Shown: positions 2,697-36,797 of the stretch, piece by piece
Layout of the letters: the number at the start of each line of letters is the position of its first letter
How positions within the stretch are numbered: position 1 is the stretch's first letter
Source of the DNA: Rhodanobacter sp.
GTDB taxonomy: Bacteria > Pseudomonadota > Gammaproteobacteria > Xanthomonadales > Rhodanobacteraceae
Direction of reading: 5' to 3'
Length of the DNA: 64,000 nt
Assembly (NCBI GenBank): GCA_004298015.1
Contig: SCSE01000082.1
Span: forward strand, 1-64,000
The notes under the pieces: generated by a model
What the model saw: the letters and a program-made list of their open reading frames with translations, nothing else
Database searches by the model: none
What the model was told of the DNA's origin: nothing
Made by a program: the position numbers and the translations under genes

Positions 2697-3980
2697 TCAA
2701 GCCTCCGAGCCGGCTGCAGCGCTGCCTCGGCCATGGCGCACCTGGCCGTTGCCGCGCAACACAAAGCGCTCGATGGTCAGCGATTCGGCACCCATCGGAC
2801 CGTAGGCGTGCAGACGGGTGGTGGAGATGCCGATTTCCGCGCCGAGGCCGAGTTCGCCGCCGTCACTGAATCGCGAAGAGGTATTGACCATCACCACCGC
2901 CGATCGCAGCGCATGCACGAAGCGGTTGGCGATCGCCTCGTCACGGGTAGCGATGACTTCGGTGTGATCCGAACCGTAGTGACGGATATGCGCAATGGCG
3001 GCGTCGATGTCCTCGACCACCGCGACGCTCAGCTTGAGCGCCAGGAATTCCGTGGCGTAGTCGTCGTCGGTGGCGGCCGCCATGGTGGGCACGCGTTGAC
3101 GCGAAGCCTCATCGCCGAGCAATTCCACCCCGCGCTCGACCAGTGCCGCTGCCGCTCGCGGCAGGAAGGCATCGGCGATATCCCGGTGCACCAGCAAGGT
3201 TTCCAGTGAATTGCAGGCAGAAGGACGGGTGGTCTTGCCGTCGATCAGGATATCCAGCGCGGCGTCGAGGTCGGCACTGGCATCGACGTAGAGATGGCAC
3301 ACACCCTTGTAGTGCTTGATCACCGGTACCCGGGCGTTTTCCGTGACGAAACGGATCAGGCCTTCGCCGCCGCGGGGGATGATCAGGTCGACGATGTCCG
3401 ACAGCTGCATCAGTTCGAGCATGGCCTCGCGACTGAGGTCGTCGAGCAGCATCAGCGCGTGTTCGGACAAGCCAGCGTCGCGCAGTGCACCGCGCAGGCA
3501 GCGCGCGATGGCCTGATTGGAGTTCACCGCTTCGGAGCCACCGCGCAGGATCACCCCGTTGCCGGCCTTGATGCACAGCGCCGCCGCGTCGGCGGTGACA
3601 TTGGGGCGGGCCTCGTAAATCATCGCAACCACGCCCAGCGGCACCCTCACGCGCTCGATACTGAAACCCTTGTCGGACTGGATCCGGCGGGTGACCTGTC
3701 CCACCGGGTCGGGCATGGCGGCGATTTCACGCAAGGCGTTGGCGATGCCTGCGACGCGTGACTCGTCCAGCGCAAGACGATCGAGCATGGCCTCGGAAAT
3801 GCCTTTGTCGCGAGCGCCTTGCATGTCCCTGGCGTTGGCGGCGAGCAGGTCGGTCGTGCCGGCCTCAAGGGCCTCAGCCATGGCATGCAACAAGGCGTTC
3901 TTCGCGTCCTCGGGCAGCTCGGCGATCTGGGCCGCGGCATCGCGGCACTTGAGCGCATTTTCGCGTACGGTGGTAGTCAT
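2697..3980 (-). CDS. proA: Gamma-glutamyl phosphate reductase (glutamate-5-semialdehyde dehydrogenase)
   Basis: Catalyses the NADPH-dependent reduction of glutamyl-5-phosphate to glutamate-5-semialdehyde, the second step of proline synthesis from glutamate, in the cytoplasm. The 427 residues match the usual family length. The aldehyde dehydrogenase fold is evident: a cofactor-binding segment [14 protein letters not shown] near residue 115, the catalytic cysteine in [10 protein letters not shown] (Cys256), and the C-terminal [20 protein letters not shown] signature. Its start codon overlaps the proB stop by four bases (ATGA), so it is translationally coupled to proB. The stop faces the convergent chemoreceptor gene 141 bases away; no clear terminator hairpin was seen between them. 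The tail after the conserved region is somewhat extended and glycine/alanine-rich. Confidence 0.97.
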
Positions 3981-5140
3981 GTGGATAGTCCTGTGTCCAG
4001 GGTGACGAGGTCGTCGCGATGCACCACGGCTTCACCGTAGCTGTATCCGAGCGTGGCCTCGACTTCCCGGGTGTGTGAGCCGGCAATCTGGTTGATTTCG
4101 GCAGCACCGTACTGGGTGATGCCCCGAGCCATGGAGAATCGCTGTCCCTCATCGCCAGCAATGATCTCGACCATGTCACCACGATGAAAATCGCCCTCGG
4201 CGGCGATCACGCCCTTGGGCAGCAGAGAGGCGCCTTCATCATTCAGGGCCTTGACGGCGCCGGCGTCGATCAGGATATGGCCAGGCACCGGTGGCACATG
4301 CAGCAGCCAGTACTTGCGCGCGTGCAAACGGGTGGCTGAGGTACGTACGCGTGTCCCGCGCAGCAGATCGCGCGCGAGCAGCCGCACGACTTCGCTGTCG
4401 CGACCGTTGAACAAAACCGTCTCGATGCCTGCAGCAGCGGCCTTTTCGGCGGCCACAAGCTTGCTGCGCATGCCACCGGTACCGACCGAACTGGCCGAGC
4501 CGCCTGCCATGGCCATGATCTCGGCGGTCATTTCCTCGACCACATCGATGGGTGCCGCGTCGCGGGCACTTCGTGGATCGGCGGTGTACAGGCCATCGAT
4601 GTCGGTGGCGATCAGCAACAGGTCGGCATCCATCTGCGCCGCCACAATGGCGGCGAGGTTGTCATTGTCGCCAAGGGTGAGCTCGTCCACCGCCACGGTG
4701 TCGTTTTCATTGACTACCGGCAGGATGTGGTGGTTCAGGAGTTCGCGCAGGGTGGCGCGGGCATTCAGATAACGGCGGCGATTACGCAGATCGTCGTGGG
4801 TCAGTAGCACCTGAGCCAACGGACGATCAAACAGGCGTTGCCACAGCGCGATGGTCTGGGTCTGGCCCAGCGCGGCCATGGCCTGGCGGCGCGCATTGGA
4901 TGCAACGCGTTGGTCGACATGGTCTTGCATCAACAGGCGGCCGGCAGCGACCGCACCGGAAGAAACCAGGATAATTTCCCGACCGGATACGTGGCAGGCG
5001 GTCATGAATTGCGCCAGGCCCAGGGCGTAACGGGTGCTCAGGCCACCGCCGTCAGCGGCAAGCAGGCTGCTGCCGACTTTCAGTACGGCGCGCTTCCACG
5101 GTGGGACGGATTGTTCGGTGAAGGTCTTTAGTGTCGTCAT
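3977..5140 (-). CDS. proB: Glutamate 5-kinase
   Basis: Phosphorylates L-glutamate with ATP to give glutamyl-5-phosphate, the committed and usually proline-inhibited step of proline synthesis. The amino acid kinase fold starts at [12 protein letters not shown], followed by [11 protein letters not shown] and [10 protein letters not shown], and a C-terminal PUA domain from about residue 290. From the ATG at 5140 the protein has 387 residues, close to the family norm. An in-frame GTG at 5194 would add 18 residues with no family match. A weak promoter-like pair (TGAAAA 5224-5229 and AATATA 5200-5205 on the plus strand, spacer 18) would start transcription near 5194, which also favours the shorter form. 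It shares a four-base overlap with proA, giving a proBA operon. Confidence 0.96.
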
Positions 5141-5484
5141 CAACTCGTGCGTGGTGGTTTCGAGGATGGGTGCCTGCACGCTTTCACAGTGCACAGCCGA
5201 ATATAACTGGGGGCATACAGCCCTGAAAACAAGGTGCTGTGCTCGGAGCGTGCAAGGTCGAGCGCTGATGCAAACGGCTCAGCCAAGGAGGTGCGGAAGT
5301 ACCGACCGTCATTCTGACAGATAGAGGTGACCGCGACATTGCGATGGTAGCCACGCGCGATTTCACGATGCTGAACCCAAGCTGCAGGCCAACGGCCAGC
5401 CAACAACGGAGTCACAGAGTCTCCACCGTCGCGCAGATATATCTCCCAGTGTCCGCAATCCTGCGGATGCTGCGGAGATACTCC
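5141..5484. other. Divergent intergenic region between proB and the CsbD gene
   Basis: About 340 bases with no credible gene. It must hold the promoter for proBA on the minus strand (weak candidate at 5200-5229) and the promoter for the CsbD-like gene on the plus strand, for which I see no consensus sigma-70 boxes. No strong dyad was found. Confidence 0.4.
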
Positions 5485-27169: not shown

Positions 27170-27643
27170 GTCGTCGGAATGCCGGGTGTAGCCACTCTTC
27201 GCCGTGCACGAAGTCGATGGCGGCTCCGGCAGGGCCGTCGAGTTCAAGGTGAATAGGGGAAGTGCGCCCCGGCAGTTCGTACCCATCCCTGTGCCGGCCG
27301 TATGCATGCGCCAGCACCGCGATTACCTTGAGCCCGGCTTCGAGATAAACAGCCGGATTGTAGTCGTCCAGGGGTTGCTGCAACGATCGGCGTCACGAGC
27401 GGCAAGGACTCCGTTGACATGGAGACGGTAGCGCCCATCGGAGAATGCAAGCCACTTCGCCGACGTGACAGTGCCGCGGAGCTGTATGGTCGGGCGAAAA
27501 TAGACGTAGCGATTGGCCTCTTCACCAATTCTGCAGGCTTCCGGCACAAGAGTCGCCCCACCGAGCTGGCATGGATGCCAGATCCACTGGGTACGACGCG
27601 AGAGATTGCTCCGATATTGGCGTGCAGCATTCCTGAAGCGCAC
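27170..27643 (-). pseudogene. Frameshifted N-terminal remnant of a GH78-like (alpha-L-rhamnosidase type) glycosidase
   Basis: On the minus strand, one frame reads TQWIWHP, then NRYVYFRPTIQLRG, then FSDGRYRLHVNGVLAARDAD. This resembles the N-terminal carbohydrate-binding part of alpha-L-rhamnosidases. Near 27370 the match jumps to another frame: QQPLDDYNPAVYLEAG, then LKVIAVLAHAYG, then GYELPGRTSPIHLELDG, continuing to about 27175. The catalytic module is absent altogether. It is therefore a truncated and frameshifted relic. It begins 34 bases downstream of the alpha/beta hydrolase gene on the same strand, and so was probably once the second gene of that operon. The family assignment rests on pattern recognition and is moderately secure. 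Confidence 0.65.
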
Positions 27644-27676
27644 CAGTCCCTGCGGCGCGTGTCGTAAGTTGTGTGA

Positions 27677-28513
27677 TCAGCTTTTCGCCTGCCCGACGGC
27701 CGCGAAAGCGCGCTCGAAGAAATCTACTGTGGCCTGCCGCGATCTGGCCGCAGCGTCCAGGTTGGCTTCAAATCTCACCTCACCGCCTTGCCCGAGATGA
27801 GCAAAGGGATCGCTAACGGTTTGCGCTGGTTCGAGTCGATTGAACGCATGTTTCGCCTCGGGGTACATCGTGACCGTGACTTGACCTCGCACCGGCTCGG
27901 GCAGGCCGTTCACCAGCTCCGTGCATGAACTGGGCTCGTCATACGCGTCGCACTCTCCGCTCTGGATAAATACCGGCGCACCGGTGAGCTCGGCAAATTC
28001 GTAGCCGGGGACCCGGTTGTAGCCCCAGCACACCGGATAGAACGGGGCGTGTGCTGCGAAGCGCAGCGGGTTGGTGGCCAGGTACAACTCGCTGTACGGT
28101 CGTGTCGCCGTCAACATCGATACGACCCCGCCCCAAGAAAACCCGGTGATACCGATGCGCTGCGGATCGATTCCAGGCCGCGAGGCGAGATACAGGAGTG
28201 CGCCATAGGCGTCCGGCAGCGTTTCAGGGACGCTCTCCGGGCGCCCGCCTGGTCCCGCATCCCCATTCAGCCCGCGTGGCGACCACATGTCCAGTTCCAG
28301 CGTGGCGATACCCGCATCGTTGAGTGCCTGGGCATGGTAGCCGCCACGACTGTCCACCCCGTTGGTGCCGTGTACCACCACCACGGCGGGAGCGTTGCCG
28401 ACGCGCGTGGGGACACGCATCTGTGCGGCGATGATCAGGGGATGCTCCTGTGACGCGTTCGGGAACGTGATGTAGGACACCCGGGGCTGTGGACGAAGCT
28501 GGATCTGGGGCAT
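27677..28513 (-). CDS. Dienelactone hydrolase-like alpha/beta hydrolase
   Basis: A cytoplasmic alpha/beta hydrolase of 278 residues. The catalytic triad is visible: nucleophile serine in GFSWGG, an acid in the SGECDAYDE region and the histidine in KHAFNR. The core VVVHGTNGVDSRGG supplies the oxyanion region. Dienelactone hydrolase-like enzymes cleave lactones and esters; the substrate here is unknown. No signal peptide is evident. The gene diverges from the TonB receptor gene, and the shared 126-base gap has a lux-box-like dyad at its centre. That suggests control by the LuxR solo encoded 4 kb away. A glycosidase remnant follows it. Confidence 0.88.
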   Translation of the reverse strand: MPQIQLRPQPRVSYITFPNASQEHPLIIAAQMRVPTRVGNAPAVVVVHGTNGVDSRGGYHAQALNDAGIATLELDMWSPRGLNGDAGPGGRPESVPETLPDAYGALLYLASRPGIDPQRIGITGFSWGGVVSMLTATRPYSELYLATNPLRFAAHAPFYPVCWGYNRVPGYEFAELTGAPVFIQSGECDAYDEPSSCTELVNGLPEPVRGQVTVTMYPEAKHAFNRLEPAQTVSDPFAHLGQGGEVRFEANLDAAARSRQATVDFFERAFAAVGQAKS

Positions 28514-28565
28514 GTCGACTCTCTCTGGAATGCCTCGATGCTAGCGATTAGCTCAGTTCCTGTGT

Positions 28566-28585
28566 ACCTGTCATTTTTGACAGTT
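28566..28585. promoter_or_regulatory. Lux-box-like operator between divergent hydrolase and TonB receptor genes
   Basis: ACCTGTCATTTTTGACAGTT contains the perfect dyad CTGTCA-TTTT-TGACAG. It fits the CT-N12-AG pattern of LuxR-type binding sites and shares ACCTGT and ACAG with the Vibrio fischeri lux box. It sits centrally: 52 bases from the hydrolase ATG and 54 bases from the receptor ATG. A TTGACA (28577-28582), possibly a -35 box, overlaps its right arm; no good -10 could be assigned. A LuxR-family gene lies at 32513-33292, in the same direction as the receptor. Confidence 0.7.
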
Positions 28586-28639
28586 ATGCCGCCTGATTCA
28601 CTATGTCTATGCTGGATGTGAAGCTTCCCGGAGGGGTCC

Positions 28640-30940
28640 ATGAGCATCAAGCCGAACAGCCTGACTTTTGCCATCGTTGCAGTTCTCGCCCTCCAGTCTG
28701 CCCATGCGCAGCAGAGCGGGAAAGCGGACGCCACGACTTCCGAAACTGGAAACAGGCAGCTCACCGAAGGGCGGAGCGCACCGGTGTCGGCGCAGGCCGA
28801 GGCCGGACAGTCGAGAACTCTGGCGGCAATCACGGTCACGGCCACCAAGCGTGTCGAACTGATGCAGGATGTGCCAATTGCCATCAACGTGGTGACCGCT
28901 CAGGATATCGAGTCGGCGGGACTGACCAGTGCGGCTGACCTGTCCATGCTGGTTTCGGGGATTACCATGATCCCGGTGGCCGGACCGGCGGCATCGAACG
29001 TGGTCATACGCGGCATGTCGAGCACGATCGGCGAGCCCAACGTAAGTTTCTTCATTGACGGCGTGTATATCCCCTCGCGCAACGCGCTCAACTTCTTGCT
29101 GGCTAACAATATTGCGCGCGTCGAAGTGGCAAAGGGGCCGCAGTACGCCCTGTACGGCCGCAACAGCTTTGCTGGTGCGGTCAACTTCATCACCAAAAAG
29201 CCGAGTAACCGGCAGGAAGGCTCGATCAGCGGCGGCCTCGGCAATTATGGTCGCCGTGACGCCGAAGTCATCGCGTCCGGCCCCTTCTCCGACGGATCCT
29301 CCTACCACTATCGGGTGGGTGTGGCCCGCAGCGACTTCGGTGGCTTTTACCGCAACGAACTTACCGGGAAAAAGCTGGACAAAACGAGTGCCCGCGGCGC
29401 TTTTCTTACACTGAACGGCGCGCCTACGGACCGTCTGAACGGGAAGTTCAATGTGATCTACGACGGAATGCACCGGCGTGATTTCGCGCAGCGGTTTGTC
29501 TCGAACAATGCCGGATTCGTGCCCAATTTCAATGACAACCAGCAGTATTTCGGCGATGTGCCGTCATTGACGAATGGCTTTGCGGTCACGCCAGGGCGCT
29601 TCAACCGCGACAGCATCCTTGCATCACTGACAGTGAACTACGACATGGATTGGGCCACCTTGACGTCGGTGACCTCCTATAACCATCTCAAGCTCGATTA
29701 CAACTACGACTCGGACTACTCGGCAGCGCAGATCGCCATGGCCGGAACTCACGGGCCCGAGACGTCGATAAGCCAGGACTTTCGCCTAGTTTCGCCCGGA
29801 AGTGAGCAGTTCGACTGGCTACTTGGCCTGTACTACTACCACCTCAGCAACGACCACGTCGACGATAGCCAGTTCGTGGGCCAGGCGGCTGCCTTGGGTG
29901 GGCTCAGCAGCGACAATCGCGAGCGCACTCGCAGTGCCGCGATGTACGGTATGGCAACCTGGCACATGACCCCCAGGTGGGATCTGGGCCTGGCGATGCG
30001 CTATACCCGGGAAACCAAGTCGGTCGATGCCACCACGACCAGCCTGCCCAGCGCCCGTAATCCCGCCGGCTCAACCGCCTTGTTTGGTGCAACACGCACG
30101 TTTACACCGTTTACGCCGGGCCTGTATCTAACCTTCAAGCCCTCCCGGAACAGCACTTTTTACGCTAGCGCTGTCAAGGCTATCAAGGTCGGTGGGTTCA
30201 ACACTTTTACGGCCAACGGCGCGATTGCAGCGAACGAGCGCTCCTACAATATGGAGCGCAGCACGAACTATGAGCTTGGCGCGAAATTCAGTCTGCTTGA
30301 CGGCCGAATTTTTCTCGACATGGATGTGTACCGCATCAACTGGCGGAACCAGATCGTGCGCACCATCGGCTCGATGGGCGCTTTGCTGAACGCCAACGCC
30401 GGCCAAACCACCTCGAAAGGCGTCGAAGCCAATCTCCAATACGAGGCCAATCGGCACTGGTCGTTCAAGCTTGGCGGTACCTACAACAATGCCAAATATG
30501 ACGAGTACACGTTTCCGATCATCGCCCTTCTTGGCGGCAATCCCGACCTGTCTGGCGTGCGGCTTCAGTACTCGCCGCGCTACACCGCCAACCTGAGCGT
30601 GATCAGCCGGCAGCCGCTCAGCAACGGCTGGGCGTGGACCACCCGGTTGGACGGCCATTACCGGTCGGACATGGTTGCTATCCAGACCGGCACGGCGACC
30701 ATCCCTGCCGCGGTACTTTTCAACCTCAACAGCAGCCTCGAGATCGGTCGGTTGCGCATGTCGCTGTGGGTCGACAACATGTTCAACAACAAGGATGCCC
30801 CCGGTGCGGTATTCACTGGTGACCCGGCAACGACATTCCAGTTCGCCGCCCGGCAGCGACCCGGACTTCAGCTGTTCCAGGCATTGGTCAACGCACCCAA
30901 GCTGCGCACGTTTGGCGTCGACTTTCGCTACCGGTTCTGA
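28640..30940 (+). CDS. TonB-dependent outer membrane receptor
   Basis: The protein has 766 residues. A signal peptide ends at AHAQ (about residue 24). A variable stretch leads to the plug domain, which starts at LAAITVTATKR (a TonB-box-like segment) and contains VPIAINVVTAQDIE, NVVIRGMSS, FFIDGVYIPSR and VEVAKGPQYALYGRNSFAGAVN. The beta-barrel follows, ending in the usual aromatic C-terminus (DFRYRF). The type is that of substrate-specific receptors common in sphingomonads and xanthomonads. Together with the downstream sugar-type permease, it suggests import of a plant-derived or other organic nutrient. GGAGG lies eight bases before the ATG. It is the first gene of a run with the MFS and LuxR genes. 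Confidence 0.94.
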   Translation: MSIKPNSLTFAIVAVLALQSAHAQQSGKADATTSETGNRQLTEGRSAPVSAQAEAGQSRTLAAITVTATKRVELMQDVPIAINVVTAQDIESAGLTSAADLSMLVSGITMIPVAGPAASNVVIRGMSSTIGEPNVSFFIDGVYIPSRNALNFLLANNIARVEVAKGPQYALYGRNSFAGAVNFITKKPSNRQEGSISGGLGNYGRRDAEVIASGPFSDGSSYHYRVGVARSDFGGFYRNELTGKKLDKTSARGAFLTLNGAPTDRLNGKFNVIYDGMHRRDFAQRFVSNNAGFVPNFNDNQQYFGDVPSLTNGFAVTPGRFNRDSILASLTVNYDMDWATLTSVTSYNHLKLDYNYDSDYSAAQIAMAGTHGPETSISQDFRLVSPGSEQFDWLLGLYYYHLSNDHVDDSQFVGQAAALGGLSSDNRERTRSAAMYGMATWHMTPRWDLGLAMRYTRETKSVDATTTSLPSARNPAGSTALFGATRTFTPFTPGLYLTFKPSRNSTFYASAVKAIKVGGFNTFTANGAIAANERSYNMERSTNYELGAKFSLLDGRIFLDMDVYRINWRNQIVRTIGSMGALLNANAGQTTSKGVEANLQYEANRHWSFKLGGTYNNAKYDEYTFPIIALLGGNPDLSGVRLQYSPRYTANLSVISRQPLSNGWAWTTRLDGHYRSDMVAIQTGTATIPAAVLFNLNSSLEIGRLRMSLWVDNMFNNKDAPGAVFTGDPATTFQFAARQRPGLQLFQALVNAPKLRTFGVDFRYRF

Positions 30941-31011
30941 GTGATGAGAGTCACTTTCCGAGGTGAGGCCTGCGGATCCGGGCGCGCGTGCAATTCGACA
31001 CGGTGCCCTGG

Positions 31012-32409
31012 ATGAACGCCCCTGCGTTGAGGCCGTGGCGGCTGGCTGGCTACGGCAGCGGCAGCATGGTGCTGGCGGCCTATTATCTGGTCAGCGCCTC
31101 GTTCCTGTTCTACGCGACTGCCATCCTGCGCGTACCACCCGATATCGCGAGCCTGGTGATGGCGGCATCGACGCTGTGGGACGCGATGATCGATCTGCCA
31201 CTGGGCTGGATGTCCGATCACACGCGCTCGCAGCGCCTGGGGCGCCGCCATCCATTCCTGATCATTGGCGGGGTTGCCGTAGCCACGCTGAGCGTACTGT
31301 TGTGGTCCATCCCGGATGGCCTCGATCTGTGGGTCAGGACAACCTGGCTGGCTGTGGCGCTGGTGGGTCTGAAGACGGCCATCAGTACCTTCGTGGTACC
31401 GCATACCGCCATGGGTGGCGATCTGGTCACCACTTACGATGCACGTACTGTCGCGCAAGGCTATCGGGCCACCTTCCAGGTGCTTGGGATGGCGCTGGCA
31501 CTGGTCGGCAGCAGTGCCTGGTTCTTTCGGCCCACGTCCGCTTTTCCACAGGGCCAGCTCAACCCCGCGGTCTACGCACCGATGGGCTGGGCCTGCGCCA
31601 TCCTGGTGTTGGGAGCGACCCTGGTCACCGTGGCCAGCACCTGGCGTTTCATACCGCGGATGCGCGCCGAGCGCGACATTCCGAGACTGGACTGGCATGC
31701 GATCCGGGGCGTTCTGCGCGATCGCAACCTGCGTGCCTTGGTGTTGATGATCCTGGTAACTGAAGCGGGCGTACAGCTCACCGTGGCCTTGGGGTTTCAC
31801 ATCAACACCTTTACGTACGGCTTGTCCGGCCCGCAAATAGCCATCCTTGCCGGGGCCTTGTTGCTCTCGGCGATCGTGGCGCAACCGATATGGATTCGGG
31901 TGAGCAGGCGCTTCGACAAGAAGCCCGCGCTGTATGCCGCCATTGCCCTGGCCGTTATCGGCCTGGTCGGTGCACCGCTGACCCACGTGGCCTGGCACTG
32001 GTTCCCGCTCAAGCCATCGGCACATCTGGTCGCTACCCTGCTGCCTTTTCAGGTACTCGCAGGCCTTGGCAACGGGGCTTTCTGGTCGCTGCCCTACGCC
32101 ATGGTCACCGATTGCGCACACGCGCGCGAACGCACGAGTGGCAGCAACCTGACCGGAACCTACTCCGGGCTGTACATTTTCGCCTACAAGCTAGGCGGCA
32201 GCCTGAGCATCGCTGGAAGTGGCGCCTTGCTGGGCTTCATCGGTTACCAGAGCAGCACCTCCGTTCAGATGGCAACGACGCGCTACGATCTGGCGGTCTA
32301 TCCTGCGTTACTGATGCTGCTATTGTTGCCGGCGATAGTCTGGTTGCTTCACGCGTATCGCCTCAAGCGCGCGGATTTCGTGGAGTCCGGCAGCGATATG
32401 CCCGGGTGA
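31012..32409 (+). CDS. MFS transporter of the glycoside-pentoside-hexuronide (GPH) type
   Basis: An inner-membrane transporter of about 465 residues with some twelve hydrophobic segments. The GPH signature between helices 2 and 3 is plain: DLPLGWMSDHTRSQRLGRRHPF. A typical second-half motif is YAMVTDCAHARERTSG. Members are cation-coupled symporters of sugars, glycosides or uronides. The ATG at 31012 is used; a GTG eight codons upstream (30988) is also open, and neither has a strong ribosome binding site. It follows the TonB receptor by about 70 bases and precedes the LuxR gene by about 100, all on the same strand. Outer and inner membrane uptake of one substrate is the natural reading. Confidence 0.9.
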   Translation: MNAPALRPWRLAGYGSGSMVLAAYYLVSASFLFYATAILRVPPDIASLVMAASTLWDAMIDLPLGWMSDHTRSQRLGRRHPFLIIGGVAVATLSVLLWSIPDGLDLWVRTTWLAVALVGLKTAISTFVVPHTAMGGDLVTTYDARTVAQGYRATFQVLGMALALVGSSAWFFRPTSAFPQGQLNPAVYAPMGWACAILVLGATLVTVASTWRFIPRMRAERDIPRLDWHAIRGVLRDRNLRALVLMILVTEAGVQLTVALGFHINTFTYGLSGPQIAILAGALLLSAIVAQPIWIRVSRRFDKKPALYAAIALAVIGLVGAPLTHVAWHWFPLKPSAHLVATLLPFQVLAGLGNGAFWSLPYAMVTDCAHARERTSGSNLTGTYSGLYIFAYKLGGSLSIAGSGALLGFIGYQSSTSVQMATTRYDLAVYPALLMLLLLPAIVWLLHAYRLKRADFVESGSDMPG

Positions 32410-32512
32410 CCCGAGGCCTGTCGGGGCCATCGCATTGTTTTAGCGTGGAGGCGTCGGTTGCACGCGCCAGCACGCCGGCTGTGCTTCATCGCTTGCCGAG
32501 GACGGAAACTTC

Positions 32513-33292
32513 ATGACGCGGTCACTGATTGTCGACGAAGCAAGCAACGAACTGTGTGCCAGTGATCGCCTGCAATTGTTTGTACGGGGGGAAGAACTTC
32601 TTTCGTTGTCCAGTCGCAGCGGTTTGGCCGATTGTCTGGAGAGCCTGCGCGCATGGCTCGACCTGAGTGAAATCGTGGTGGCTACCGGCATGATCGATAC
32701 GTTGCCGGATGCGCACGTGATTGGCTCCGGATACGACCCGAAATGGATGGAGTTGTATTTGCGCGAGCAGTTTGTCCTGGTCGACCCGATAGTTCGGGCA
32801 ATCGTCAACGGCCAACGATTCCTGAGCCGGTCTCGGGCGATAGCCGAGAACAACGCGGTCGCCCGTATGGGGCGGCGCAGACATATGCTTGAGCGTTTTC
32901 TGGAGGCCGCGCAAGACCATGGTCGCCTCGGCTACGGGTTCGCCAGCGGAGTAGTGTTCAACGGTCGCATTGCTCTGTGCTCGGTGATTACCTCACGGGA
33001 TCAGGGCGATCAGCGCGCCCAACTGGCCCTGCGTGCCTTGCGCCCGATGCTGTACCAGGCAATGATGCGGGTGTCGCTATCAGCGCCGGTTTTTCCCCAT
33101 CTGAGTCAGCGCGAGGTTGCCATGCTCGAATGCCTTGCCAGCGGCTATGGTGACATTCAGATTGCCGATGCCATGTCGATTTCCGCATCGACCGTTCGCT
33201 TCCACCTGGGCAATGTGTTCGAAAAACTCGGGGCGCGCAACCGCTGTCATGCCGTCGCCATTGGCTTCCAGTCCGGCCTGCTGCAGCGCTAG
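32513..33292 (+). CDS. LuxR-family quorum-sensing type regulator (LuxR solo)
   Basis: A protein of 259 residues with an N-terminal autoinducer-binding domain and a C-terminal GerE-type helix-turn-helix. In the ligand domain, the signature residues are Trp78, Tyr82, Asp91 and Pro92 (equivalent to TraR Trp57, Tyr61, Asp70, Pro71). The position matching Trp85 holds Arg106 in an ungapped count, so the pocket may be atypical. The DNA-binding part reads LSQREVAMLECLASGYGDIQIADAM and keeps the conserved Glu, Leu and Gly. No luxI-type synthase gene is present in the window, so it is a solo. It is the last gene of the receptor-permease unit and probably acts at the lux box at 28566-28585, which would give positive feedback. 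Confidence 0.9.
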   Translation: MTRSLIVDEASNELCASDRLQLFVRGEELLSLSSRSGLADCLESLRAWLDLSEIVVATGMIDTLPDAHVIGSGYDPKWMELYLREQFVLVDPIVRAIVNGQRFLSRSRAIAENNAVARMGRRRHMLERFLEAAQDHGRLGYGFASGVVFNGRIALCSVITSRDQGDQRAQLALRALRPMLYQAMMRVSLSAPVFPHLSQREVAMLECLASGYGDIQIADAMSISASTVRFHLGNVFEKLGARNRCHAVAIGFQSGLLQR

Positions 33293-33480
33293 ACAAGTCT
33301 GGCCACGCCTGTCAGCGCCTCGCTGATCGTCGCCCCGGCACCGCTCAACGCCATACGCGCGGTGGCACAAGTCGACGTGAATTGGGTAAATCTGTGCATT
33401 ACGCCGGGGTATCCGGCACAGCTGCCTGGAACACTCGATATACTGCGATCTAATGCGTCGGCGTTGAGCCGAACGAGGCT

Positions 33481-34347
33481 TCATACCATCCCTGCCATCC
33501 TCAGCAACACGCCGGCCAGACTCTTCAGATCCTGTGCATTGTGCGCCGCTACGCGCCGGAGATTTTTCGCTGCGCCGCCGCGTAGATAGGTGAGCCACGC
33601 CGCCGGTGCCTCGGAACCGGGCAAATCGTCTTCGCGCACTACACCAAGCAATTGCCGTTCCGCCGTGGCCAGCCGGCAGTTTTCCCATTGGCCTTTCCAG
33701 TGCCGGCGCACCGGGTGTAGCAAGTCGATGTGGGCAAGCCCCAGTAGTGGATTCGCCAACCGGGCGAGGCGATACCGGGTGGCCAGCAGCGGCGCGTCGT
33801 AGCATTTGCCGTTGTAGCTGACGAGCACGCTGTCGTCGCCGACCCATGCAGCGAAGGTCCGCAGCATGGCGGCTTCGGCGGCCATGCTGGTGATGGTTAG
33901 TTGGCGGATACGGAAGCGGCCGTCGACCCAGTCGGCGGCGCCGATCATGAAAGCGCGGGTGCCGGTACCGCCGGCCAGGCCGGTGGTTTCGGTATCGAAG
34001 TGCAGCAGGCGCTGGTGATGCACTGGCTTCACTCTCGCGAAGCCGGCGTCGATGATCACCGGCGGCTTGAGCCAGTCGACGCAGGTTTCGGTGTAGCGCA
34101 GACCGGGTGACAGCTCGATGCCGGGCACGTCGCGGTCGGTCGATGCGAGGTACGCCGGTCCCCGTTTGAGGTGCGCATGCCGTTGCAGCAGGCGGCGCAC
34201 CTCGGGCGACAGCGAGGTGTTTGCAAGAGTGTGATCCTTCGCTGTCGCCACGCCGCACCCGGCGCGAGCGGTGGCGAGCGGGGAGGTGAGTTGCGGGTGT
34301 CCGGCCTGCGTGCGTAGCTGACGCAACCTGGCGTGCAACGGACTCAC
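33481..34347 (-). CDS. mrfB: MrfB-like (YprB) RNase H-fold exonuclease
   Basis: The protein has 288 residues. A DEDD-type exonuclease core starts at LLHFDTETTGLAGGTGT, with the first acidic pair Asp-Glu. It continues through LVSYNGKCYDAPLL and closes with AAHNAQDLKSL. In Bacillus subtilis, YprB (MrfB) works with the helicase YprA (MrfA) in a mitomycin C repair pathway independent of UvrABC. The start is a GTG at 34347 whose last bases form the stop of the upstream helicase gene (GTGA overlap), so the two are translationally coupled. The N-terminal 80 residues are a less conserved basic extension. Confidence 0.88.
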   Translation of the reverse strand: MSPLHARLRQLRTQAGHPQLTSPLATARAGCGVATAKDHTLANTSLSPEVRRLLQRHAHLKRGPAYLASTDRDVPGIELSPGLRYTETCVDWLKPPVIIDAGFARVKPVHHQRLLHFDTETTGLAGGTGTRAFMIGAADWVDGRFRIRQLTITSMAAEAAMLRTFAAWVGDDSVLVSYNGKCYDAPLLATRYRLARLANPLLGLAHIDLLHPVRRHWKGQWENCRLATAERQLLGVVREDDLPGSEAPAAWLTYLRGGAAKNLRRVAAHNAQDLKSLAGVLLRMAGMV

Positions 34348-36797
34348 AGTGCCACCAGCAGGGCCAGCACGCGCAACGCCAGCACCTTGGGTGTGCCGGC
34401 TTCCGCTGCTTCGTTTTGTGGGTCGGCCGAGCGCGCTTCGGCGGCATGCTCGTCGGCGGCCAGCACCGGCCCGACACAGGCAGGGCAGCCAGCGCGGCAA
34501 TCGCAGCGTTCGATCAGGCTGACCGACTGGGCGATCAGGTCCTCGCGGCGCTGGAACAGCGGCTCGCTGTGGCCGATGCCGCCGGGAAAGGCATCGTACA
34601 GATACACGGTGGGGGTGAACGGCGCATCCGCTGCCAGCGCGGCGGGTTGGCCGTCGGTACCGCGCAGCTGGCCACGGCCTTGCCTGTCGGCGCTGACGAA
34701 CCAGGCGCCGTCGCCGCTGCCAACGGATTTCTGCAGGTCGCGCGCTTCGGCCATCACGGCCACGGTGGCTACCAGGTGCAGTGCGTTGGCAGCACCGAGA
34801 AACCCGTCCAGCGCCTGCTGGCGCTGCTCGAACACGGCGTCCAGCACGGCTTGTGGCAGCTGCCACCAGACCGCGGTGGTGTGCAGCTCCTGGTCGGGCA
34901 GGTTGACCGGACCGTAGCCGATGTTTTCGTGCGAGTAGAAGCGGATCTTCTTGTAGCCGGGCACGTGGCGCACCACGTGCACCTCGCCGTGATGCGCCTC
35001 GCCGGCACCGGCGTGGGAGCTGTCGAAGCAGTCCAGCACCTTGAGCCGGGTATAGTCGATGGCGTCGGTGTAGTAGTCGACCTGGGTGCGGGTGACATAG
35101 GCCTTGCGGCCTTCCCAGTCCAGCCGCTCGACCTGGTAGGGCGTGGACTGGATCATGTGGATGGCACCCTCGTACAAGGTGACGGCCGCGGCGGAATAAT
35201 CGACTTCGGCAATGATGGTCTGGCGGCCGTCGGTGCGGTCGACCACCACAAAGTTGCCATCGGCCACCGAACGCAGCGAGACCGCGATGGCCGGGTAGCT
35301 GTCGGCGATCCACTCCCAGCGCTCGCCCTCGCGATGCAGCACGCCTTCCTCGCCCAGCACTTCGAGCCACGGCGTGGCGACTTCAGTGCCGAACATCTCG
35401 TCGCCGTTGAATGGCAGCTCGAACGCGGCGCAGCGGATGTGGTCGAGCAGGATCAGCGGTTGATCGGGCTGGATCCGCGCGTGCTCCGGCGTGGCACCCT
35501 GGAAGAATTCCGGATGGCGTACCAGGTATTGATCGAGCGGATGGGAACTGGCCACCAGCACGCCCAGCGCCGACTGCTGGCGCCGGCCGGCGCGGCCGAA
35601 GCGCTGCCAGGTGGCCGCGACCGAACCGGGGTAGCCGTTGAGTACCACCACGTCGAGGCTGCCGATATCCACGCCCAGCTCCAGCGCCGAGGTGCTGACA
35701 ATGCCGTCGATGCTGCCGGCACGCATCGCGCGTTCGGCGGCGCGGCGTTCCTTCGGCAGGTAGCCGCCGCGGTAGGCACGGATGCGCGGTGGCTTGCGCG
35801 GATCATGATCAAACACGTCCTTGAGGTATTTGGTCAGCACCTCGACCATGCTGCGCGACTGTGCGAACACTAGCGTCTTCATGCCCGATTTGATCGCCAG
35901 CCGCGCGATGCGGTTGGTCTGCGAGCGGGCCGAGGCGCGCAAGCCCAGGTCGGGATTCACCACCGGCGGGTTCCACAGCAGCACGTGCTGGTCGCCCGTC
36001 GGCGCGCCGCTCTCGGTGATCGCGGTGACGGCATCCTCGATCAACGCCTCGGCGTGTTCGTGCGGATTGCCGATGGTGGCCGAGCACAGGATGAATTGCG
36101 GGGTGACGCCATAGAACGCGCACACCCGCTTGAGCCGGCGGATCACGTTGGCGACATGCGAGCCGAACACGCCGCGGTAGGTGTGCACCTCGTCGATCAC
36201 CACGTAGCGCAGGTTCTCGAAGAACTGCGCCCACTTGGTGTGATGCGGCAGGATCGCCTGATGCAGCATGTCCGGGTTGCTCACCACGATGTCACCGTGC
36301 AGGCGGATCGCCTGGCGCGCGTCGCCCGGGGTGTCGCCGTCGAAGGTGAAGGCCTTCACCCCCAGCTCGCCGGCGTTGTTGAGTTCCAGCAGCTCGGCCA
36401 CCTGATCCTGCGCCAGCGCCTTGGTCGGAAACAGGTAAAGCGCCTTGGCGCGGTTCGCCATCGCCGCCGTGATGACGGGCAAGGTGTAGCACAGCGACTT
36501 GCCCGAGGCGGTGGGTGTGACGACGGCCACATGCTCGCCCGCCTGACTGGCGGCCCATGCCTGTGCCTGGTGGCTGTACAACTGCTCGATCCCGCGCGAG
36601 CGCAAGGCGGTGGCCAGCGCGGGCGGCAGGTCCTCCGGCAGCGGCGCGAACGAACCTTTGCGACCGGGCACCACGAAGGCGCCGGTGATCCGCGCGGCGT
36701 AGCGTTTTGACAGCCGCTGCGCCAGCGTGCGGCCATCGGATGGGGCGCGCAGCACCAGTTCGTCGGCGGTGTCATAGCGGTCAGGCAAGGCATTCAT
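34344..36797 (-). CDS. mrfA: MrfA-like (YprA) DEAD/DEAH superfamily 2 helicase with DUF1998
   Basis: An 817-residue helicase. The motifs run in order: Walker A TPTASGKSLCY (near residue 94), DEVH in VVIDEVHTYRGVFGSH, SAT in LCSATIGNP, and motif VI in WQRFGRAGRRQQ. The C-terminal DUF1998 domain has the four-cysteine cluster CDCRAGCPACVGP near residue 770, as in MrfA where a zinc-binding role is proposed. The helicase unwinds DNA, presumably at crosslinks or bulky adducts, for the coupled exonuclease encoded just downstream. Length and motif order fit the family well. It overlaps mrfB by four bases. No damage-response operator was found upstream. Confidence 0.92.
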   Translation of the reverse strand: MNALPDRYDTADELVLRAPSDGRTLAQRLSKRYAARITGAFVVPGRKGSFAPLPEDLPPALATALRSRGIEQLYSHQAQAWAASQAGEHVAVVTPTASGKSLCYTLPVITAAMANRAKALYLFPTKALAQDQVAELLELNNAGELGVKAFTFDGDTPGDARQAIRLHGDIVVSNPDMLHQAILPHHTKWAQFFENLRYVVIDEVHTYRGVFGSHVANVIRRLKRVCAFYGVTPQFILCSATIGNPHEHAEALIEDAVTAITESGAPTGDQHVLLWNPPVVNPDLGLRASARSQTNRIARLAIKSGMKTLVFAQSRSMVEVLTKYLKDVFDHDPRKPPRIRAYRGGYLPKERRAAERAMRAGSIDGIVSTSALELGVDIGSLDVVVLNGYPGSVAATWQRFGRAGRRQQSALGVLVASSHPLDQYLVRHPEFFQGATPEHARIQPDQPLILLDHIRCAAFELPFNGDEMFGTEVATPWLEVLGEEGVLHREGERWEWIADSYPAIAVSLRSVADGNFVVVDRTDGRQTIIAEVDYSAAAVTLYEGAIHMIQSTPYQVERLDWEGRKAYVTRTQVDYYTDAIDYTRLKVLDCFDSSHAGAGEAHHGEVHVVRHVPGYKKIRFYSHENIGYGPVNLPDQELHTTAVWWQLPQAVLDAVFEQRQQALDGFLGAANALHLVATVAVMAEARDLQKSVGSGDGAWFVSADRQGRGQLRGTDGQPAALAADAPFTPTVYLYDAFPGGIGHSEPLFQRREDLIAQSVSLIERCDCRAGCPACVGPVLAADEHAAEARSADPQNEAAEAGTPKVLALRVLALLVAL

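Follow-up and report, generated by a model that had tools for sequence, protein, structure and literature searches.

A probable LuxR-solo-controlled scavenging module in Rhodanobacter with a lux-type box between divergent uptake and hydrolase genes

The question raised by a locus of Rhodanobacter sp. is what a quorum-sensing-type LuxR regulator might be doing among uptake and hydrolase genes. The locus lies in the window, the whole 64,000-nucleotide stretch of DNA that was analysed, and its features are collected in Table 1. Many LuxR solos still lack an assigned ligand or target. Judged from sequence, the locus is probably a scavenging module under the control of a LuxR solo, and the compound taken up would contain an ester or lactone and would originally have been rhamnosylated. 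A sequence-only reading of this DNA had proposed a switch here, and of that proposal the LuxR solo, the box common to divergent uptake and hydrolase units, its retention in relatives and the place of luxR within the presumed regulated unit have stood.

Table 1. Features of the locus in the window
Feature	Position	Strand	Remarks
GH78 alpha-L-rhamnosidase gene remnant	27189..27620	-	Frameshift and about 525-base deletion; intact gene at same place in L039 and L040
DLH-family (dienelactone-hydrolase) alpha/beta hydrolase	27677..28513	-	GFSWGG nucleophile motif; no signal peptide evident on reading
-10-like hexamer TAGCAT	28538..28543	-	22 bases past box, putatively serving hydrolase; TAGCAT/TAAAGT/TAGAAT at gap 21-22 in 5/5 loci
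Lux-type box ACCTGTCATTTTTGACAGTT	28566..28585	.	Between divergent units; same sequence in G167 and G175, still recognisable in G011 and in G002
-10-like hexamer TATGCT	28608..28613	+	22 bases past box, putatively serving TonB-GPH-LuxR unit; TATGCT/TACGCT at gap 21-22 in 5/5 loci
TonB-dependent outer-membrane receptor	28640..30940	+	Pfam Plug and barrel
GPH-type MFS symporter (MFS_2)	30988..32409	+	Pfam
LuxR solo, Autoind_bind and GerE HTH	32513..33292	+	Pfam domains
Abhydrolase_3 esterase gene remnant (3' end)	33300..33451	-	Convergent with luxR; intact gene in L039 and L040

The gene identities given earlier were confirmed by Pfam. The LuxR matched Autoind_bind at 44 bits and GerE at 65 bits, both above the Pfam cut-off, while the symporter scored 107 bits to the NCBIfam gph subfamily, under the cut-off of 231. 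It had been claimed that no synthase gene is present and luxI was indeed absent from the own genome (99.6% complete) in searches that can be said to work, since they recovered luxI in 17 of 233 genomes family-wide, the first control genomes having been silent. A luxI elsewhere with its own paired regulator had been named as potential counter-evidence; the own genome was found to hold neither luxI nor a second autoinducer-binding LuxR, this LuxR being the one Autoind_bind protein found there. With an autoinducer-binding domain, a LuxR HTH and no cognate luxI in its own genome the protein is a LuxR solo. One carrier genome, G002, has luxI elsewhere, adjacent to a gene that on reading is luxR-like.

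Numbered from the CviR alignment and spacing, eight of the nine key residues of TraR are kept in all five LuxR orthologues, the loss being that of W85, and none of the five has a W between the P71 and G113 positions. The best solved-structure match of the LuxR was CviR, relative to which there are about five extra residues in the region of the lost W85. The positions of W57 and Y61 hold W and Y in 5/5 orthologues. The plant-responsive OryR-type solos carry the signature W57M/Y61W in the available part of PMC10134790; as this is absent in 5/5, the LuxR was rejected as a member of that group. LuxR solos can respond to neighbouring AHLs or plant compounds; for the present one the pocket residues speak against the OryR subfamily that responds to plants. 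The hydrolase was also considered as a UilS AHL lactonase and rejected (32.3 bits against an NCBIfam cut-off of 400, with only about 110 residues aligned). AlphaFold models of the LuxR and the hydrolase (mean pLDDT 44 and 32) were too poor for use.

The position claimed earlier for the box proved exact, as did its distances to the start codons on either side, 52 bases for the hydrolase and 54 bases for the TonB receptor/GPH symporter/LuxR unit. Its supposedly perfect arms hold for the inner 16 bases (CTGTCA-N4-TGACAG), with one of the two outer base pairs mismatched. By frequency the motif is unexceptional: in the window CT-N12-AG alone was found 153 times against 151 expected and CTGTCA-N4-TGACAG with up to two mismatches three times against 2.1, both at chance level, and ACCTG-N10-CAGNT occurred once against 0.41 expected and was present in 29 of 100 shuffles. 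The motif by itself is therefore weak proof, and position and conservation carry the case. No further site within three mismatches of the box was found in the own genome (3.93 Mb). In an alignment of the intergenic gaps of the window, L039, L040 and L041, the most conserved 20 bases were those of the box, tied with 28567-28586, and invariant columns made up 14/20 of the box stretch vs 27/100 outside it (Fisher p = 4e-4). Comparison of gene order and box across relatives, a check named earlier, found a recognisable box in 4/4 relatives that keep the locus, a conservation that spans only about three well-separated lineages. The CT-N12-AG form holds in 5/5 loci, with imperfect arms in L040 (ACCTGAAGATTTCGACAGTT) and L041, and two congeners, at synonymous distances of 0.3-0.7 from the window, have exactly the same box as the window.

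On both sides of the box there are -10-like hexamers. TAnnnT was found 21-22 bases from the box, a spacing picked post hoc after inspection, on 10/10 sides across the five loci, whereas shuffled flanks of the window, L040 and L041 had it on at most 3/6 sides in 20000 trials. The TTGACA that can be read inside the window's box and the -10 hexamer are 25 bases apart, more than an activator-free sigma-70 promoter allows. A generic promoter scan of the gap found no sigma-70 promoter, a result that counts against the reading. Box and hexamers together appear to be arranged as in a lux-type promoter that works in both directions.

Purifying selection acts on all four core genes, those of the hydrolase, the TonB receptor, the GPH symporter and the LuxR, with dN/dS of 0.09-0.27 between the window and two congeners (0.13-0.16 for the hydrolase, about 0.1 for the symporter). 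Full-length LuxR and DLH orthologues co-occur in the same 5/233 family genomes, the G011 assembly being 81% complete, and in all five carriers the gene order is identical and the gap holds a box. The hydrolase family is not confined to the module; a 49% identical protein is present in G816 in an unrelated context and there were two further weak matches, in G863 and G613. The searches at order and at phylum level each took in 398 genomes, with up to six candidates scored per genome, and a scan of named genomes used six peptide patterns. Nothing came from the contexts of a distant LuxR relative in G848, of the G816 DLH or of the three best Deinococcus plasmid DLHs (66 plasmid records), and nothing relevant from plasmid LuxRs among the matches listed or from viral contigs. 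The module may occur more widely, beyond the genomes searched.

As regards the surroundings, no clean empty site was found; the DNA downstream of yprB in the window was set against that at 18 yprB loci besides the own one, without a match (the comparison drew on 30 loci, leaving out L091-L101). The downstream ORFs read at four of these loci differ from those of the window, and the DNA beside yprB is variable among congeners. In 3-kb bins the locus has a GC of 0.607 and 0.612, low within the 0.607-0.662 spanned by the window as a whole, and this was rejected as a sign of import.

In relatives the system is larger than was claimed earlier, with a rhamnosidase, an acyl-CoA-ligase-like enzyme and a second esterase added, and one relative's cluster also includes a second glycosidase. 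The rhamnosidase-type glycosidase described on the hydrolase arm is real as a remnant and dead in the window as a functional part. Bac_rhamnosid domains, which we take to be GH78, were above cut-off in L038, L039 and L040, with the remnant only in the window and no rhamnosidase at the L041 locus. The AMP-ligase (acyl-CoA/ACP-ligase-like) is present at L038, L039 and L041. The ligase scores 610-615 bits to its closest structure, an acyl-ACP synthetase, vs 176 bits to a feruloyl-CoA synthetase. No such ligase was found in the window or in L040; the AMP-ligase at the contig end of L040 is another one and is oppositely oriented. The full added set is intact in L039 only. The esterase remnant and the end of luxR share 80% DNA identity with L038 over 262 columns. 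The L038 copy carries deletions. A second match to PF17389 is present in the own genome. The catabolic genes have undergone decay in the window, as have some of them in G167, and so a substrate deduced from these genes is not necessarily that of the window.

Direct observation covers the gene content and its synteny, the geometry of the box and the -10 hexamers, selection and the remnants; binding, activation, ligand, substrate and the cellular place of the enzymes we infer. In the proposed mechanism the LuxR, with an external ligand, would bind the box and activate two back-to-back promoters. That on the plus side would drive the TonB receptor, the GPH symporter and luxR itself, giving positive feedback, and that on the minus side the DLH hydrolase, presumably cytoplasmic. 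An external small compound would pass through the TonB receptor in the outer membrane and the GPH symporter in the inner one, and would be hydrolysed inside the cell by the DLH hydrolase. Where relatives have a fuller cluster, the rhamnosidase might remove rhamnose, and the second esterase might free an acyl group for activation by the ligase. Of this set the window retains sensor, uptake and first hydrolase; its rhamnosidase and second esterase are lost.

Alternatives to this scavenging module concern both the site and the locus. It is unlikely that the box serves some other regulator, that its dyad arose by chance or that the LuxR represses from it; the chance-level frequency of CT-N12-AG and the loose dyad, and a LuxR-box binding that is only putative, leave room for this, but the conservation of the box, its match to the lux-box form, the symmetric -10 geometry and the presence of luxR within the unit speak against it. 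A view of the window's locus as a relic in decay, with no present function, would agree with its two remnants and the variable DNA beside yprB; it is distinctly unlikely, given that all four core genes are open and constrained and that the box has stayed identical to those of two congeners over the distances noted.

The nature of the inducer is less settled. There is a real chance, somewhat short of even, that induction comes from the substrate itself or from a plant glycoside and not from an AHL, and that the LuxR is an ordinary catabolic regulator. Rhamnosides are common in plants. The loss of W85, the extra residues there and the tight linkage of the sensor to a single uptake/hydrolase set favour this, against which the W57M/Y61W signature of plant-responsive solos is absent. 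Rhamnolipid producers use AHL control, and the LuxR might sense foreign AHLs while the module imports and digests rhamnolipid, the rhamnosidase removing rhamnose, the esterases cutting the hydroxyacyl ester and the ligase activating the 3-hydroxy acid. The retained AHL-receptor residues, the closeness to CviR and the combination of GH78, two esterase-type hydrolases and an acyl-ACP-synthetase-like ligase fit such eavesdropping, which nevertheless seems improbable, as W85 is lost in all orthologues (as in some CepR2-group proteins, in the accessible part of PMC4338825), a GPH symporter would be an unusual carrier for so amphiphilic a molecule and there was no precedent in the literature among the matches listed. 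A little more doubtful is the proposal that bacteria making no AHLs hear those of rhamnolipid producers and then import and dismantle rhamnolipids through one two-way lux promoter. The DLH protein might instead be an AHL lactonase, with AHLs both ligand and food in a form of quorum quenching; it has a weak NCBIfam similarity to UilS, the LuxR has AHL-type pocket residues and the freed acid could be taken by the CoA ligase. This is very unlikely given how far the UilS match lies below its cut-off and how little of it aligns, and it would leave the rhamnosidase unexplained. No amidase was noticed among the cluster genes read. If the ligand were an AHL, the locus would offer a direct example of quorum-sensing signals serving as a food cue. 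In any case the sensor, the DNA site, the uptake genes and the degrading enzymes lie within one constrained module, so that ligand and substrate can be searched for together.

The proposed scavenging module has likenesses to several known systems. A lux-type box is present at pip. In the OryR/XccR-pip solos of plant-associated bacteria a LuxR solo adjoins a hydrolase (peptidase) gene, as here, and the ligand is external, as is proposed here (PMC4338825, PMC10134790, as far as available), but positions 57 and 61 are M and W there and W and Y here; the present locus has no pip gene but TonB/GPH uptake genes and a putative two-way promoter. The AHL-responding solos SdiA and QscR, and likewise CviR, share the autoinducer domain, HTH and most key residues, whereas here W85 is lost, the gene lies within a catabolic/uptake unit and the own genome has no luxI. 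CepR2 of Burkholderia cenocepacia is also a solo, with W85A in some members of its group, yet it has another gene context, and the G113 and E178 changes of that group, reported in the same part of PMC4338825, are not shared here. LuxR402 of Novosphingobium sp. HR1a, likened by description and not by sequence, is a self-regulating solo that responds to N-(3-hydroxyoctanoyl)-homoserine lactone, and the genes affected in its mutant include sugar-uptake genes and a TonB receptor; its described role is the regulation of cell envelope and flocculation, and the accessible text of PMC10413115 has no box shared with a divergent TonB/GPH/hydrolase unit such as that seen here. Among the matches listed in the literature search no paper joined a quorum-sensing-type LuxR with a TonB-type utilisation locus and a rhamnosidase; PMC13273656 was rejected as a precedent, concerning an IclR regulator in the portion available. 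Apart from these stands the overall type of the locus. TonB receptor, GPH symporter, glycosidase, esterase and ligase are typical of TonB-receptor loci for carbohydrate or aromatic utilisation, and the present module differs from these in that its regulator is a LuxR of the quorum-sensing type.

Full-length orthologues of the LuxR protein were found in four further genomes among the 233 family genomes searched, at 85 and 83% identity in the congeners G167 and G175 and 64 and 53% in G011 and G002 of a second genus (loci L038 to L041, in that order). The next match among those listed scored 48 bits against 255, and most of those listed cover the HTH only. A search with the DLH-family hydrolase (E <= 1e-15) returned exactly the same five genomes. 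The sequence-only reading had proposed comparing the gene order and the box across relatives, and both the order hydrolase, box, TonB receptor, GPH symporter, LuxR and the box itself are kept in all five carriers. Comparison of the window with its two congeners gave dN/dS values of 0.13-0.16 for the hydrolase, 0.15-0.18 for the receptor, 0.09-0.11 for the symporter and 0.15-0.27 for LuxR. The divergent start codons are separated by 126 bases, and the distances of 52 and 54 bases from the box to the two start codons reported earlier were reproduced.

Features of the LuxR-solo locus in the window
Feature	Position	Strand	Details
Rhamnosidase gene remnant	27189-27620		Frameshift and ~525 bases missing
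Hydrolase, 278 residues	27677-28513	-	Pfam DLH, 54 bits
Box	28566-28585		20-base lux-type dyad
TonB-dependent receptor	28640-30940	+	
GPH-type symporter	30988-32409	+	MFS_2
LuxR protein, 259 residues	32513-33292	+	Autoind_bind and GerE domains
Helicase-yprB pair	33484-36797		

The window and its two congeners have the same box, letter for letter; that of G011 reads ACCTGAAGATTTCGACAGTT and that of G002 ACCTGTCGATTTCGATAGTT. When the gaps of the window, L039, L040 and L041 were aligned (L038 being omitted as too close), 14 of 20 columns were invariant in the box vs 27 of 100 outside; no 20-base stretch outscores it and one neighbouring stretch ties. In the window, bare CT-N12-AG is worthless as evidence because 153 occurrences were observed vs 151 expected, and CTGTCA-N4-TGACAG with two mismatches allowed is at chance (3 vs 2.1). 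For the stricter ACCTG-N10-CAGNT there is a single occurrence in the 64 kb vs 0.41 expected, with a chance of ~0.001, by post hoc arithmetic, of landing inside the gap. No second site within three mismatches of the box was found across the whole genome of the window. A degenerate pattern derived from the loci, scanned over the five carrier genomes with the reversed pattern as control, gave ten sites vs six for the control. Half of the ten are the locus sites, with 0-1 mismatch, and the remaining five have 2 mismatches; in the window's own genome there were two non-locus sites vs zero control sites. These counts do not indicate a wider box regulon beyond the locus.

A TAnnnT hexamer lies 21-22 bases past each box end in all five loci (10/10 sides), as TATGCT in four and TACGCT in the remaining one on the receptor side, whose counterpart towards the hydrolase is TAGCAT in three loci and TAAAGT or TAGAAT in the others. 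Spacing windows of 20-21 and 22-23 take in five of the ten sides through overlap with 21-22, and any other from 3 to 38 fewer than three. Shuffled flanks of the window, L040 and L041 carried TAnnnT on at most 3/6 sides in 20000 trials, and those of all five loci on at most 3/10, figures that serve as a guide and not a probability because the loci share ancestry and the spacing was picked post hoc. In luxI-type promoters the activator layout has the lux box centred ~42-45 bases before the start, replacing the -35 region; here the box would be centred near -44 in either direction. A generic scan found no sigma-70 promoter in the gap, as expected if the promoters are activator-dependent and also compatible with there being no promoter.

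The picture differs for the flanking enzymes. The rhamnosidase gene after the hydrolase is open and full-domain in L039 and L040 and was not found at L041; in L038 (7779-10106) it has an in-frame deletion of ~60 codons and its C-terminal domain is unmatched. The remnant of this type claimed earlier for the window held up. The sole PF17389 match in the window's own genome, partial at 34.5 bits vs a cut-off of 24.5, is on another contig inside a 757-codon frame (G000:C81:41395-41745, +). An AMP-ligase is intact in L039 and L041 and shortened in L038 (10043-11506), with ~260 bases missing near the start and a frame change; that of L040 differs, being ~26-27% identical, in opposite orientation and at a contig end. 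The L041 and shortened L038 ligases both pass the threshold for an acyl-CoA ligase subfamily that NCBIfam labels long-chain. Against solved structures, those of L039 and L041 score 615 and 610 bits with an acyl-acyl carrier protein synthetase, by far their closest match, vs 176 bits for L039 with feruloyl-CoA synthetase. An Abhydrolase_3 esterase is intact in L039 and L040, frameshifted in L038 (1162-2091), not seen at L041 and reduced to ~150 bases beside luxR in the window. L039 also carries a GHL6/alpha-L-fucosidase-like glycosidase gene directly after luxR (3214-5346, -), not found within the examined stretches of the other four loci. Because the window and L038 lost different pieces, their enzyme loss is, judged by these remains, independent, with core and box retained. 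We take the core to be the functional unit and the flanking enzymes to be a variable set of tools.

In the window the locus follows a helicase-yprB pair; yprB was found in 28/45 genomes of the genus, adjoining the helicase gene in 30/30 loci examined. In 18 other loci the DNA that follows yprB has no match to the window, and this region is possibly a variable site. In G167 and G175 the pair and the solo locus are on different contigs, an arrangement compatible with linkage but showing no adjacency. The ligase end in G175 and G002, two genera, is followed by genes that on reading look like HPPD and homogentisate dioxygenase (L039 16608-19001; L041 14419-16819), which may be plain neighbourhood or a hint of an aromatic product. 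Sporadic occurrence (3/45 genomes in the genus) and differing neighbours suggest that the module was transferred or moved as a unit.

The earlier claim that no synthase gene is present extends to the whole genome of the window, where neither luxI, and hence no luxI with its own paired regulator to account for the box, nor a second Autoind_bind protein was found. Ten of the 45 genomes of the genus have luxI, the three carriers not among them, so the ligand is most likely external in at least these three. Among the five carriers luxI is found only in G002, on a different contig from the solo locus, its absence from G011 being less sure at 81% completeness. The G002 gene forms a divergent pair with a luxR-like gene (L106 1813-3752).

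Whether that ligand would be an AHL was considered from the sensor residues. The best solved match of the LuxR profile is CviR (E 2e-20). All five orthologues share the residues at TraR positions W57, Y61, D70, P71, E178, L182 and G188 as well as the two glycines that are candidates for G113; none has a counterpart of W85. PMC4338825 describes W85A in some CepR2-group proteins and takes the loss of key residues to suggest non-AHL ligands. According to PMC10134790, plant-responsive solos of the OryR subfamily carry W57M/Y61W; this signature is absent from the five orthologues, which places LuxR outside that subfamily. On these grounds an AHL and a non-AHL ligand are both possible.

In the most probable mechanism, LuxR together with an external ligand would activate both promoters, and sensing and uptake would thereby reinforce themselves by positive feedback. 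Once imported, the compound would be hydrolysed in the cytoplasm, since no signal peptide is evident on the enzymes by reading. The enzyme set of the fuller clusters fits a compound bearing rhamnose and an acyl group, and a rhamnolipid would fit well. The usual makers of rhamnolipid use AHLs.

No literature joining LuxR or LuxR solos to a rhamnosidase was found in the open library. The parts read of the gene-context tables in PMC4338825 show no TonB/GPH/DLH group, and its main text lacks the words TonB and Rhodanobacter. By the features tested the protein is a LuxR solo, not of the OryR subfamily, with one AHL-receptor residue missing, and it would work like a solo whose target is adjacent. 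The nearest described case among the literature examined is LuxR402 of Novosphingobium, which according to PMC10413115 regulates itself, responds to a 3-hydroxy-C8 AHL and has effects on sugar uptake, although its setting differs.
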